A stretch of 6,744 nucleotides of DNA from Clostridia bacterium (GTDB taxonomy: Bacteria; CBDUZB01; JAGLHV01): positions 1 to 6,744 of the forward strand of contig JAUVLC010000127.1 of assembly GCA_030595925.1 (NCBI GenBank). The letters are read 5' to 3'. This document shows positions 2,755-6,639 of this stretch, piece by piece (within the stretch, counting starts at the first letter, position 1; the number at the start of each line of letters is the position of its first letter). The translations under genes were made by a program, and so were the position numbers. Under the pieces are notes generated by a model. That model made no database searches. It was not told the DNA's origin and was given only the letters and a program-made list of their open reading frames with translations.

Positions 2755-4967
2755 ATTGGCCGATTAAAAAATGGGTTTTAAAAAGGCCTGATAAAAAAAT
2801 AGTAGAAAAAATTGCAGATAAACTAAATATTTCCCCGGTTATTGCCCGTATTTTGGTAAATCGGGGAGTAAAAACAATAAAAGAAGCTAATGATTTTATT
2901 AATTCCGATATTTTAGATATATATTCGCCTTTTTTATTGACGGATATGGAAAAAGCGGTAGAAAGAATAAAGAAGGCGATAAAAAATAAAGAAAAAATAC
3001 TTATTTACGGGGACAGGGACGTAGATGGTATAACCAGTGTGGGAATAGTAAAAAAGTTTATTGATGGTGTAGGTGGAAAGACAGTTTACTATATACCATC
3101 CGAAGAAGGATACGGAATCTTTAAAAATATTCTGGAAAAGTATAGTCATGAGGGAATTAGCTTAATTATTACGGTAGATTGTGGAATAAATGCGATAGAA
3201 GAAGTTTCCTATGCCAAAAGCTTAGGAATGGAAGTAATAATAACCGATCATCATCAACCCTTAGAAATTTTACCTTCTGATGCTCTCGCGATAATAAATC
3301 CCAAAAGAGAAAATTCTTCGTACCCTTTTAAATCAATAGCAGGATCAACGGTTGCTTTTAAACTTTGTCAGGCTTTTTTGTATTCAAATGGAAAGGAGTA
3401 TATTAAAGAATTAATAGCAATAGCAGTTAAAAAAAATGATTCTTCTCTTCAAGCAGGGGAAGGAGAGAATTTTGAAATAGGAGCGGTAAAGCTAAAAAAT
3501 GGATTGACTGTAGATACATTTAACGGTAAGTATGAAAAAGGTAAAATTTCTTCGAATAAAATGGTAGAGAATTTTTTGGATTTTATAAAAGAAAAACCAT
3601 TGATTGTTTATAATGAAACAGAAAATTTTAAATTTTTAAAAGAACAAATAGAAAAAATGTCAGGTAAAAAAATAAAGAATCAGATAGTGGATGTTTTAAA
3701 AATGAGTTATGCTCATCCACAATTGAAATCTGATGACTTAATTTTTAGCCCGGAAAAACTGGTAAATACGAATTTGAAAACCGATGTTCAAAAACATAGT
3801 ATGCTCGAGGAACATAATTCCTTAACAGATGCTTTATCCATAGCCGGAATGTTTTATAAGCTTTTTTCTATATCTAATTTTCGTATGAACTTTTTTATCA
3901 AAGAATATGTTGATTTGGTTGCTTTAGGTCTTGTTGCGGACCATATGCCCTTAATTGATGAAAATAGAATTATTCTTAAATATGGATTGAAACGGATAAA
4001 GCGTACTAAGAAAAAAGGATTAAAAGCAATTCTTGAAAAATGGAATATTGATGATATTCCTACTATTGAGGATATTTCCTGGTATATTGCACCTTTTCTA
4101 AATGCGGCAGGAAGAATGGGGCAGGGACATTTAGGCGTTGAGTTAATTTTAACTAATAAACCGGAAGAAGTACAAGCTTTGCTAACAAAGATTAATGATT
4201 TGAACGAAAAAAGAAAAAAATTGCAAAAGAAAAGTTTAGAATATGTTATGAAATTACTGCCACAGCAGTGTGATATTAATAAGGATAAAGTTCTTGTAAT
4301 TAGTGTTGATGATTTGGATCGTGGAATAATAAGTATCATTTCTTCCCGGATTTTTAGGGAGTATGATAGACCTGTTATTATACTTAGTATAGTGGGAGAA
4401 GAGGCGCGTGGGTCGGCACGAAGTATAGATTCTTTTGATTTAACCAGGGCTTTTGGGAAATGCAGCAGTTTGCTAATTCGTTACGGGGGGCATAAAAAAG
4501 CTGCCGGATTGACTATTGCGGTAGACAATATTGCAAAATTCAAGGAAAAAATCAAAAAAATTGCCGAAGAAACAATAAGCCATGAGACATTAGGGGCTAA
4601 ATTGGAAATAGATGCGAAAATAGACATATCTTTAGCTACCCGGGAATTTGTGAAAGAGATAAATCAATTGGGCCCTTATGGAGCGGATAATCCTCCTCCG
4701 GTTTTTAGTATAGAAAACATTCCTGTAAAAAAATGTATCGGGAAAAAAATTAGTAAAAATCACCTGTTTTTAAAAATAGAAAATAATGGGAAAAAGATAG
4801 ATGCCGTAGGGTGGAAAATGGGGTCAAGAAAGGAAGTTTTTTCTCAAGTGGATTTCGTAGATTTTGCTTTCCAATTGGAATTAAACAAATGGCAGGAAAA
4901 AGAATCCGTCCGAATGAGATTGGAAGATATAAAACCATCCCAGAGGATGCTTAATCAGCAGGGGTAA
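2751..4967 (+). CDS. recJ: Single-stranded-DNA-specific exonuclease RecJ with an inserted DnaQ-like domain
   Basis: RecJ is a DHH-family 5'-3' exonuclease on single-stranded DNA, acting in recombination and repair and needing Mn/Mg. Visible in order: motif I YGDRDVDGITS (residues 86-96), motif II VDCG (142-145), motif III TDHHQP (165-170), motif IV AGSTVAFKL (197-205), an extra domain (about 221-372), motif V DLVALGLVADHMPL (388-401), LNAAGRMG (450-457), the DHHA1 parts RGSARS (553-558) and RYGGHKKAAG (577-586), and an OB-fold region from about 640. The metal-binding Asp/His set looks complete, so the RecJ activity is probably intact. Without the insertion the protein would be about 588 residues, near the family norm of about 570. 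Odd changes: Arg89 replaces the usual aromatic in GDYD, and Phe449 replaces the usual Arg before LNAAGR. Start: ATG overlaps the pdp stop by four bases, with GAGG (2740-2743) at 7 bases. No clear terminator follows. Confidence 0.95.
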   Translation: MNWPIKKWVLKRPDKKIVEKIADKLNISPVIARILVNRGVKTIKEANDFINSDILDIYSPFLLTDMEKAVERIKKAIKNKEKILIYGDRDVDGITSVGIVKKFIDGVGGKTVYYIPSEEGYGIFKNILEKYSHEGISLIITVDCGINAIEEVSYAKSLGMEVIITDHHQPLEILPSDALAIINPKRENSSYPFKSIAGSTVAFKLCQAFLYSNGKEYIKELIAIAVKKNDSSLQAGEGENFEIGAVKLKNGLTVDTFNGKYEKGKISSNKMVENFLDFIKEKPLIVYNETENFKFLKEQIEKMSGKKIKNQIVDVLKMSYAHPQLKSDDLIFSPEKLVNTNLKTDVQKHSMLEEHNSLTDALSIAGMFYKLFSISNFRMNFFIKEYVDLVALGLVADHMPLIDENRIILKYGLKRIKRTKKKGLKAILEKWNIDDIPTIEDISWYIAPFLNAAGRMGQGHLGVELILTNKPEEVQALLTKINDLNEKRKKLQKKSLEYVMKLLPQQCDINKDKVLVISVDDLDRGIISIISSRIFREYDRPVIILSIVGEEARGSARSIDSFDLTRAFGKCSSLLIRYGGHKKAAGLTIAVDNIAKFKEKIKKIAEETISHETLGAKLEIDAKIDISLATREFVKEINQLGPYGADNPPPVFSIENIPVKKCIGKKISKNHLFLKIENNGKKIDAVGWKMGSRKEVFSQVDFVDFAFQLELNKWQEKESVRMRLEDIKPSQRMLNQQG
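3411..3866 (+). other. Inserted DnaQ-like (DEDDh exonuclease-fold) domain inside RecJ, catalytically degenerate
   Basis: Residues about 221-372 do not belong to RecJ but follow the order of a DEDDh exonuclease: EIGAVKLKNGLTVDTF (after Exo I), a helix MVENFLDFIKEKP, LIVYNETENFKFL (Exo II), QIVDVLKMSYAHPQLKSDDL, and EEHNSLTDALSIAGMFYKL (Exo III). Aligning by eye, Exo I DxE is replaced by Lys227 and Asn229, and the Exo II Asp by Asn292, while Exo III keeps His355 and Asp360. Three of four carboxylates are lost, so I infer no exonuclease activity and a structural, DNA-contact or protein-contact role. The frame is unbroken and codon use is like the rest of recJ. The domain sits in the loop between motifs IV and V, next to the RecJ active site. 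The alignment is manual; the fold call is fairly safe, the exact Exo I register less so. Confidence 0.82.
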
Positions 4968-4976
4968 AGGTGGTTC

Positions 4977-5109
4977 ACAGATAACAGATAGTCCATAGTC
5001 GACAGTCCATAGTCCATAGATAACAGATAAAGAATAAATACTAAATCCTAAATTCGAAATACTAAACAAATTCAAAATACAAAATACAAAACAAAGGACA
5101 AAGACAAGG
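4977..5109. repeat. Degenerate heptamer tract (19 consecutive 7-base units)
   Basis: The spacer after recJ reads in a fixed 7-base period: acagata twice, gtccata, gtcgaca, gtccata twice, gataaca, gataaag, aataaat, actaaat, cctaaat, tcgaaat, actaaac, aaattca, aaataca twice, aaacaaa, ggacaaa, gacaagg. Neighbouring units are most alike, and the consensus drifts from GTCCATA-like to AAATACA-like. A period of seven is incompatible with coding, so open frames reading across it are artefacts. Heptameric short tandem repeats are known from cyanobacteria (STRR); whether this tract is related is unknown. It lies at the border between the housekeeping operon and the recombined zone. Confidence 0.8.
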
Positions 5110-5181: not shown

Positions 5182-5520
5182 ATGAGAAGGATAGATGTAA
5201 AGCAAAGTTTAATAAATGATTTTGTAAATAGGTCCTTTAGGGATCAAGCCGATAAAGATTATATTGTTGCTAGAATATGTTATCGATATAGCTTGCCTCA
5301 ACAATTTTTATGGAGTGCTTTACAAACTATAGAGAAATATTTAAAAGCAATTTTACTTTATAATAGAAAAAGTACTATAAACCTTTCTCACAACATATCA
5401 AAAGCATACGAAGAAGTATTAAAAATATCTGACATTTCTTTTGATTTTCCAGAAGAAATAAAACCACAATCACAAATACAAGCTTATATGATAATTTCTG
5501 GTTTCAAAACGAATACTTAA
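5182..5520 (+). CDS. HEPN-domain protein, C-terminally truncated
   Basis: Residues about 1-95 match the HEPN family found in bacterial genomes: FVNRSFRDQADKDYIVAR, then SLPQQFLWSALQTIEKYLKAILLY, a conserved His70 (NLSHN) and a second helix SKAYEEVLKI. HEPN proteins are all-helical; many are RNases or toxins paired with a MNT nucleotidyltransferase, but no MNT partner is present here. From about residue 95 (EEIKP) the homology stops, because the bases from about 5460 belong to an endonuclease gene in another frame; the last ~17 residues are therefore read out of frame from foreign sequence. The ATG at 5182 has a good site, AAAGGA at 5171-5176, so a shortened protein could still be made. Loss of the C-terminal helices and the expected continuation suggest a dead gene. 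HEPN identity fairly sure; function of this copy unknown. Confidence 0.75.
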   Translation: MRRIDVKQSLINDFVNRSFRDQADKDYIVARICYRYSLPQQFLWSALQTIEKYLKAILLYNRKSTINLSHNISKAYEEVLKISDISFDFPEEIKPQSQIQAYMIISGFKTNT

Positions 5521-5660
5521 CCGAATATAACCAAAATTCCGGTATTGACATGTTTGACCAAACAATGTTTAATAATGACGATACAAAAGCAAAACTAGCA
5601 GTATCCGACCATCGTCCCATCTGGGCAACATTTAACATTACCCACCCCGACGATGATTGA
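5460..5660 (+). pseudogene. 3' remnant of an endonuclease/exonuclease/phosphatase (DNase I-like) family gene
   Basis: In the frame with codons at 5460, 5463 and so on, the sequence reads KTTITNTSLYDNFWFQNEY, later GIDMFDQTMFNNDD, then LAVSDHRPIWATFNI and ITHPDDD-stop at 5658. SDHRP (5604-5618) is the C-terminal catalytic motif of the EEP superfamily, with the Asp and the His general acid/base, and YDNFWFQ is typical of secreted or extracellular members. Only the last ~66 codons exist: upstream the bases encode the HEPN protein in a different frame, and a stop in this frame lies at 5442-5444. There is no start or ribosome site. It is a fragment left by a deletion or recombination event. Confidence 0.8.
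5637..5660 (+). repeat. Right copy of imperfect direct repeat (end of the EEP remnant)
   Basis: ATTACCCA, CCCC, GACGATGATT, GA: it encodes ITHPDDD-stop, the tail of the EEP remnant. It pairs with the copy at 5129-5152, about 500 bases upstream, with two identical blocks of 8 and 10 bases at the same spacing. Together they bracket the HEPN fragment. Confidence 0.6.
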
Positions 5661-5772: not shown

Positions 5773-6639
5773 ATGAAAACCATAATAATCACTTCAGTAG
5801 TTTTTTTTCTTTTTGTTTTGTCATGCGATGCTTCAAATAACGGAATCGCAGGTTTGGTTAAACGCTATTATGATAGAAAGACATTATCATCTGTTGTTGT
5901 TGAGGTGAAAACGCAAACAGATATTAGAGAACAAATGAACAAAGCCCATAAAACAAGTAAGACCGATTCTGCTGGTCAATTTGAGATATCTGGATTAATT
6001 GCAGGAAAGGGTTATCAAGTCCGGGTCAAGGATCCGATGTATATTAGTGATTCAAATTATGTATATGTTCCAGAAAAAGGTACAAGAATGCTGAAAAATC
6101 CTCTAATAGCCTGTCCTCTTCCCCCCGGCGGAGGTATTTGGATTTATGAATTTAGTTCCTCTAAATTTAATAGACTCAAGTTGGAGAATGAAAAGAAAGT
6201 TAAAATAAGGGTGCATGCTGGTCTTATTGGAAATAGATCAGTATTTTCTATCTCCGATAACGACACGAATAAGATTTGTGAGGAAATAGAACCCGATGGA
6301 TTGCTTATAATCTTCCGTGAGGATGTTAAGGATATAGCCCAATTATATAAGATCCCAAACAAAACTGTATCACTTGGTACAGAAGGGACTGCTCAAATAA
6401 AAGAAGGCTGGTATTATAATATAAGAGACTTTTTTGGGGAAGACTGGTGGAGTGATGGGCGCAAAAGATTAGCAGCTCTAGGACAAACACCACTTTTAGA
6501 GAATGCGTTAAATATAAAATCAAACAATATTTGGGCAATTCCATTAAGAAACTTCTATTCAGGATTGTATATTTTAACAACAGAAATTACATCTGGGCAA
6601 AGAGCTAGTGTACTGTCTCTAACAGTTCTTTACATTTGA
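5773..6639 (+). CDS. Predicted lipoprotein with a transthyretin-like/carboxypeptidase-regulatory-like domain
   Basis: The first 17 residues are a short signal peptide (one Lys, then a hydrophobic stretch IIITSVVFFLFVL) ending in VLSC, a plausible lipobox with lipidated Cys18; Asp at +2 would, by the E. coli rule, favour the inner membrane if the host is diderm. Residues about 24-115 look like a seven-stranded carboxypeptidase regulatory-like domain (GIAGLV start, then TDSAGQFEISGLIAGKGYQVRV, the TDxxGxFxxxxLxxGxYxV pattern), usually an adhesion or folding module. A PPGGG linker follows, then about 170 residues (GIWIYEF onward, with FFGEDWWSDGRKRL near 220-232) that I do not recognise. It has its own promoter and ribosome site, so it is a separate transcription unit. 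The 3' end overlaps the opposing transposase frame by 21 bases; the last eight or so residues may be derived from the insertion element. Function unknown. Confidence 0.8.
   Translation: MKTIIITSVVFFLFVLSCDASNNGIAGLVKRYYDRKTLSSVVVEVKTQTDIREQMNKAHKTSKTDSAGQFEISGLIAGKGYQVRVKDPMYISDSNYVYVPEKGTRMLKNPLIACPLPPGGGIWIYEFSSSKFNRLKLENEKKVKIRVHAGLIGNRSVFSISDNDTNKICEEIEPDGLLIIFREDVKDIAQLYKIPNKTVSLGTEGTAQIKEGWYYNIRDFFGEDWWSDGRKRLAALGQTPLLENALNIKSNNIWAIPLRNFYSGLYILTTEITSGQRASVLSLTVLYI

Follow-up and report, generated by a model that had tools for sequence, protein, structure and literature searches.

The window (the whole stretch of 6,744 nucleotides that was analysed) contains a complete recJ gene set among genes of several other kinds. 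Its first feature is a GGDEF domain truncated by the window start (1-471; Pfam E 1e-28). Genes for a purine nucleoside phosphorylase and a pyrimidine nucleoside phosphorylase (544-2754) precede recJ, and since the pyrimidine nucleoside phosphorylase gene overlaps the recJ start (ATGA at 2751), the arrangement suggests that genes for nucleoside salvage and DNA degradation form one operon. Directly after recJ are short tandem repeats (4988-5107), composed of an ATAGTCC heptamer and AAATACAAAAC-like 25-mers. Two adjacent broken genes seem to occupy 5182-5660: an ORF with HEPN similarity (Pfam E 5e-4, under its cut-off) has a stop at 5520, and the open fragment that follows ends SDHRPIWATFNITHPDDD, which by eye resembles the tail of an endonuclease/exonuclease/phosphatase protein. 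At 5773-6639 an ORF that may encode a secreted protein or a lipoprotein gives a weak carboxypeptidase regulatory-like match.

The recJ product scores 548 bits with the NCBIfam model TIGR00644, against a curated cut-off of 396.9, and is therefore a member of the RecJ family; it carries the Pfam domains DHH, DHHA1 and RecJ_OB. The gene and the features of its RecJ core are as follows, with the motif labels and the roles of the motif I–VI residues taken from Cheng et al. 2016 (PMC4846377).

2751-4967, + strand: recJ, 738 aa, with a nested DnaQ-like domain (TIGR00644; Pfam DHH/DHHA1/RecJ_OB; AlphaFold)
3009-3029, + strand: RecJ motif I, GDRDVDG, with metal ligands Asp88/Asp90/Asp92, and with Arg89 at the position of the Tyr of ordinary RecJ (drRecJ Tyr80) (alignment; PMC4846377)
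3096-3116, + strand: loop 116-122, PSEEGYG, without the 5′-phosphate Arg of ordinary RecJ (drRecJ Arg109) (alignment; PMC4846377)
3177-3179, + strand: RecJ motif II metal ligand Asp143 (invariant alignment column)
3246-3254, + strand: RecJ motif III, Asp166-His167-His168 (DHH) (invariant alignment columns)
3879-3938, + strand: helix 377-396, bridging the C-terminal end of the insert and motif IV Asp397 (DSSP of the full-length model)
3939-3941, + strand: RecJ motif IV metal ligand Asp397 (invariant alignment column)
4113-4115, + strand: RecJ motif V Arg455 (invariant alignment column)
4284-4568, + strand: DHHA1 domain (Pfam PF02272)
4413-4421, + strand: motif VI Ser555/Arg557, inside the DHHA1 domain (invariant or nearly invariant columns)
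4608-4928, + strand: RecJ OB domain (Pfam PF17768)

The RecJ catalytic residues are all present (Asp88, Asp90, Asp92, Asp143, His167, Asp397, Arg455, Ser555 and Arg557). The full-length AlphaFold model, built from an input of 33 sequences, has a pLDDT of 89 and a pTM of 0.89, and when the insert is left out it matches Staphylococcus aureus RecJ (8y30) with Z 40.1 over 555 residues (VIA-align). The protein is thus predicted to be an active RecJ 5′-3′ single-strand exonuclease.

Between motif III (DHH, 166-168) and motif IV (Asp397) this RecJ carries a second domain, in which the following features are recognised.

3393-3878, + strand: nested DEDDh (DnaQ/PolC-exo-like) domain, residues 215-376, about 160 residues, predicted to be catalytically dead (profiles; AlphaFold; structure comparison)
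3423-3431, + strand: Exo I positions Ala225 (Asp in live inserts) and Lys227 (Glu in live inserts) (alignment to live inserts)
3624-3626, + strand: Exo II position Asn292 (Asp in live inserts) (alignment to live inserts)
3726-3809, + strand: low-confidence loop, residues 326-353, directly before Exo III (pLDDT below 50 in the full-length model, and similar in the insert-only model)
3813-3830, + strand: Exo III His355 and Asp360, both kept (His and Glu in the sister species G001) (alignment to live inserts)

Several lines of evidence identify the fold. First, the insert taken alone (3396-3890) matches NCBIfam DEDDh models (PRK09145, E 2.3e-9; PolC, E 8e-6; dnaQ, E 3e-5), and phmmer matches it to the PolC exonuclease of Thermotoga maritima (2p1j; E 2.2e-4); a profile made from seven insert-bearing RecJs matches the same exonuclease with E 1e-43 over profile positions 211-388. 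Second, an AlphaFold model of the insert alone (residues 209-384; 14 input sequences) has a pLDDT of 78 and a pTM of 0.74, with the strand and helix order of RNase H-like/DnaQ domains. Third, comparison of this model by Foldseek and VIA-align finds the PolC exonuclease (9qrn; Z 14.6), the DinG exonuclease (8zef; Z 14.0) and E. coli epsilon (2ido; Z 13.7), and residues 215-377 within the full-length model match the PolC exonuclease with Z 15.0. Models and structure comparison thus agree on a DnaQ-type RNase H-like fold, present whether the insert is modelled alone or in the whole protein; the nested DEDDh-type fold is real and far above chance. This bears out an earlier note on this DNA, made from the sequence alone, which had proposed a proofreading-type domain nested in RecJ and structure prediction of both forms as the check.

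The placement of the domain departs from that note in three respects. Its bounds of 221-372 do enclose an RNase H-like fold and are slightly too narrow, about 215-376 fitting better; the site, put between motifs IV and V, lies between III and IV by the labels of PMC4846377; and the domain does not nest beside the active site. Its last helix (357-375) runs almost straight into the RecJ helix 377-396, Asp397 being at the far end, so the root of the domain would be about 28 Å from the catalytic metals along this helix (19 residues at 1.5 Å each).

At the five DEDDh positions the window has A, K, N, H and D, and the sister species G001, whose protein is 73% identical, has T, K, G, H and E, where live inserts have D, E, D, H and D. 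Three of the five catalytic residues are therefore lost in the window, the five-residue DEDDh set is incomplete, and the domain is, judged by these residues, catalytically dead. The note's description of an insert kept in frame and stripped of catalysis thus holds, through the losses at Ala225, Lys227 and Asn292. Its Exo II position (Asn292) and Exo III residues (His355/Asp360) agree with the alignment to live homologues; its Exo I acids, read as Lys227/Asn229, were two residues out of register. The idea that His355 and Asp360 survive for a reason is rejected, as the sister species has Glu at position 360 beside its His.

We define a subfamily of RecJs by a domain of at least 100 aa between motifs III and IV, at the same site, and the window RecJ, with 172 aa there in the alignment, belongs to it. 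Carriers are found in many families of Spirochaetota, including Treponema and Borreliella, and in Elusimicrobiota (L090, L091), Lindowbacteria (L092), RUG730 (L109), the genus of the window and further lineages (L006, L066, L068, L069, L072 and L073). The homologue search and the check for DxE that had been proposed therefore find same-site inserts in several phyla, with all five residues (D, E, D, H, D) in 19 of the 65 carriers; the remainder miss anything from one to all five. Since many members have the full set, the dead copy in the window would be one decayed branch of a two-nuclease enzyme. There are also intermediate and reduced states. L090 keeps DxE and has Asn at Exo II and Lys in place of His at Exo III, and its insert, like that of the window, lacks a segment between Exo I and II. 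Shortened inserts of about 100-110 aa, with no recognisable catalytic residues, are present in L077, L078 and L119, which are grouped with Elusimicrobiota, although only L119 bears the name Elusimicrobium. Dead inserts of about 145-180 aa occur across Spirochaetota, those of Borreliella and Treponema (L114 and other Spirochaetota loci, L093-L113) being about 145-155 aa. Taken together the residue patterns indicate that the inner nuclease has died repeatedly across the subfamily and yet has been kept. Seven members were scanned with Pfam, and DHH, DHHA1 and RecJ_OB are found in all seven and RNase_T in five. Among viral RecJs, all 21 matches span too few residues to contain an insert.

A RecJ paralogue, L211 (G073:C51:1700-4200), shows the reverse decay: its motif I is TDKDSEG and no DHH motif was seen, and its nested exonuclease, with DLETTG intact, appears live. 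The same genome (G073) also carries a second RecJ of ordinary length.

In a tree of the RecJ core, with the insert columns left out, the carriers, the window RecJ included, fall on one side, except that the insert-free L075 lies among them. When the inserts are placed with free DnaQ-like domains, an AU test does not reject the inserts as one clade (p 0.65, from a weak tree of 178 columns). The DEDDh domain was thus apparently acquired once in this RecJ subfamily. A tree in which every insert-free RecJ groups together is not rejected by an AU test run on a reduced set (p 0.72), so that L075 may either have lost its insert or never had one.

The subfamily also differs at the 5′-nucleotide pocket. 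The RecJ of Deinococcus radiodurans contacts the 5′ nucleotide through Tyr80 of motif I, which is stacked on the base, and Arg109, which holds the phosphate (PMC4846377). Of 83 insert-free RecJs, 80 have Tyr, Phe or Trp at this motif I position and 82 have the loop Arg. In the 65 carriers the motif I residue is always Arg, Lys or Ser, and 63 of them have no loop Arg (L043 and L068 have one at a different place, read by eye). The window RecJ, with Arg89 and no loop Arg, departs from the usual RecJ 5′ pocket, which is not a condition of membership; the near relative L075 has the carrier-type pocket, yet no insert. The pocket thus looks remodelled in the insert subfamily, and the motif I Arg may take over the 5′ phosphate.

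Some of the components have precedents. The window protein shares with bacterial RecJs of known structure (D. radiodurans, Thermus thermophilus and S. aureus) the DHH-DHHA1-OB core, all metal ligands and the fold, and differs in its 160-residue nested DEDDh-like domain, in having Arg for Tyr in motif I and in having no equivalent of drRecJ Arg109. With the DEDDh exonucleases (DnaQ/epsilon, PolC exo and DinG exo) the insert shares the fold (Z 13.7-14.6), PolC exo being nearest in sequence, but it is nested in RecJ and has lost three of the five catalytic residues. Nested DEDDh domains are already known from PolC, where the exonuclease is inserted in the PHP domain (PMC3919608); there a normally live exonuclease sits in the PHP domain of a polymerase, whereas the window has a dead copy within a nuclease. 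Dead DnaQ-like domains kept in a DNA-processing enzyme are likewise known in Pol I orthologues (PMC12926913), in a different host enzyme and at a different place in the chain. Finally, the DHH domain of Cdc45, a eukaryotic relative of RecJ, also has an insertion, proposed to bind partners (PMC4873980), although that one is helical, that of the window is RNase H-like, and the link between Cdc45 and RecJ is distant. A profile search of solved structures finds no RecJ with a nested domain, the best RecJ matches consisting of two stretches that flank the insert. In the accessible text of a Borrelia recJ study (PMC2779866), RecJ is handled as a plain 5′-3′ exonuclease. Literature searches, with most subscription papers and outside domain databases beyond their scope (the architecture may stand there without comment), yielded no description. 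The two-nuclease form of RecJ is therefore apparently both widespread and undescribed.

Building on the fold, its site, the residue losses, the kinship with live forms and the constraint on the insert, all established by computation, we consider it likely that this is a RecJ subfamily with a once-acquired DEDDh domain that is dead in the lineage of the window and kept there as an accessory binding module. The ancestor of the subfamily would have gained a DEDDh 3′-5′ exonuclease domain in the loop that separates motif III from the helix before motif IV. Live members would then be two-nuclease enzymes, the DHH core trimming the 5′ ends and the nested domain the 3′ ends of single-stranded DNA, and their intact catalytic residues make it most likely that they attack both ends of a single strand. 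The nested domain of the window lineage would have become inactive, with every catalytic residue of the RecJ core retained, leaving 5′-3′ activity only. Attached to the helix that leads up to Asp397, the dead domain is still folded and would most likely bind single strands or a partner, as an accessory module.

It could instead be an evolutionary leftover, needed only for RecJ folding, with no binding role and en route to loss. The catalytic positions vary even within the genus, the Exo I-Exo II segment is missing in the window and L090, and the shortened inserts of L077, L078 and L119, together with the insert-free L075, mean that the domain can be dispensed with. However, the persistence of dead inserts of some 145-180 aa across Spirochaetota speaks against this, as does the constraint on them. 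Between the window and G001, the one species pair compared, the dN/dS (NG86) of the insert, 0.27, is as low as that of the C-terminal half, 0.28, the N-terminal part having 0.21. Dead inserts have a median ratio of insert to core distance of 1.14 and live ones a ratio of 1.23, from pairs that are not independent. Measured against the RecJ core, the dead inserts do not evolve faster than the live ones, and the copy in the window therefore looks like a maintained pseudo-exonuclease. Dead inserts appear to be under purifying selection and not drifting free, in line with the earlier suggestion that the domain was retained, and we regard a mere leftover as rather unlikely.

The note put forward binding at the 3′ side of the substrate, gating and docking as jobs for the dead insert, and all three are candidate roles. 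A more specific possibility among them is that the dead insert is a docking site for a partner. The insertion proposed for docking in the DHH protein Cdc45 (PMC4873980) offers a parallel, and the modelled root of the insert is distant from the catalytic site, so that docking need not block that site. We hold docking, as a candidate role, to be unlikely in this specific form. It is very improbable that His355/Asp360, together with other residues, sustain a residual or altered catalysis: two of the five DEDDh residues are present, but with the two Exo I acids and the Asp of Exo II missing, metals could not be held in the known way, and Asp360 is itself replaced by Glu in the sister species. That the segment is an ordinary RecJ region mistaken for a DnaQ-like domain can be dismissed, since, although Pfam RNase_T (PF00929) finds no match in the insert of the window, the site holds 1-18 residues in insert-free RecJs against 100-187 in carriers, the segment has both the fold and the sequence matches of a DEDDh domain, and live homologous inserts match RNase_T with E down to 1e-39.

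The preferred reading, of a once-live nuclease kept as a binding module, leaves room for a further role of the live forms. In the genome and genus of the window, searches with PF00929 and TIGR00573 find no DnaQ-like domain besides the dead RecJ insert, which is itself seen in the window by TIGR00573 only, and weakly. Among 120 Spirochaetota genomes, the RecJ insert matches RNase_T in 16, 13 of which carry no RNase_T domain elsewhere; a separate RNase_T domain is thus present in 3 of the 16 genomes with a live insert and in 64 of the 104 others (Fisher p 0.002, hand counts). Counted by family, also by hand, p is 0.02 to 0.16, which is not securely significant, so this exclusion is only suggestive. 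In the four genomes of one spirochaete family, f72 (G106, G113, G154 and G134), no DnaQ-like domain is found apart from the live RecJ insert, and the DnaE proteins (L195, L221, L223 and L224) have a degenerate PHP metal site with ligands lost, for example FVNLHVQSHYSILR and TDYNN versus FVHLHVHSHYSLLDG and TDHGN; the DnaE of the window keeps FVHLHNHTEYSLLDG and TDHGN, its N-terminal PHP motifs being intact. A survey of bacterial polymerases noted some bacteria with an inactive PHP and no recognised DnaQ (PMC12926913). One may speculate that the RecJ insert fills this missing-proofreader gap in f72. The wider proposal, that live-insert RecJ is a two-ended single-strand exonuclease which in some bacteria is the sole DnaQ-type exonuclease and a non-canonical replication proofreader, the dead copy of the window lineage being kept as a binding module, is quite doubtful. 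It would nonetheless supply a concrete candidate for the unexplained proofreader where PHP is broken and DnaQ absent, the gap noted in that survey.

For the RecJ family, the finding would mean that one chain can hold two nucleases of opposite expected polarity, in several phyla, with dead forms in Treponema and Borreliella. Live, dead and shortened inserts form a natural series that can be used to test what a pseudo-nuclease domain does.
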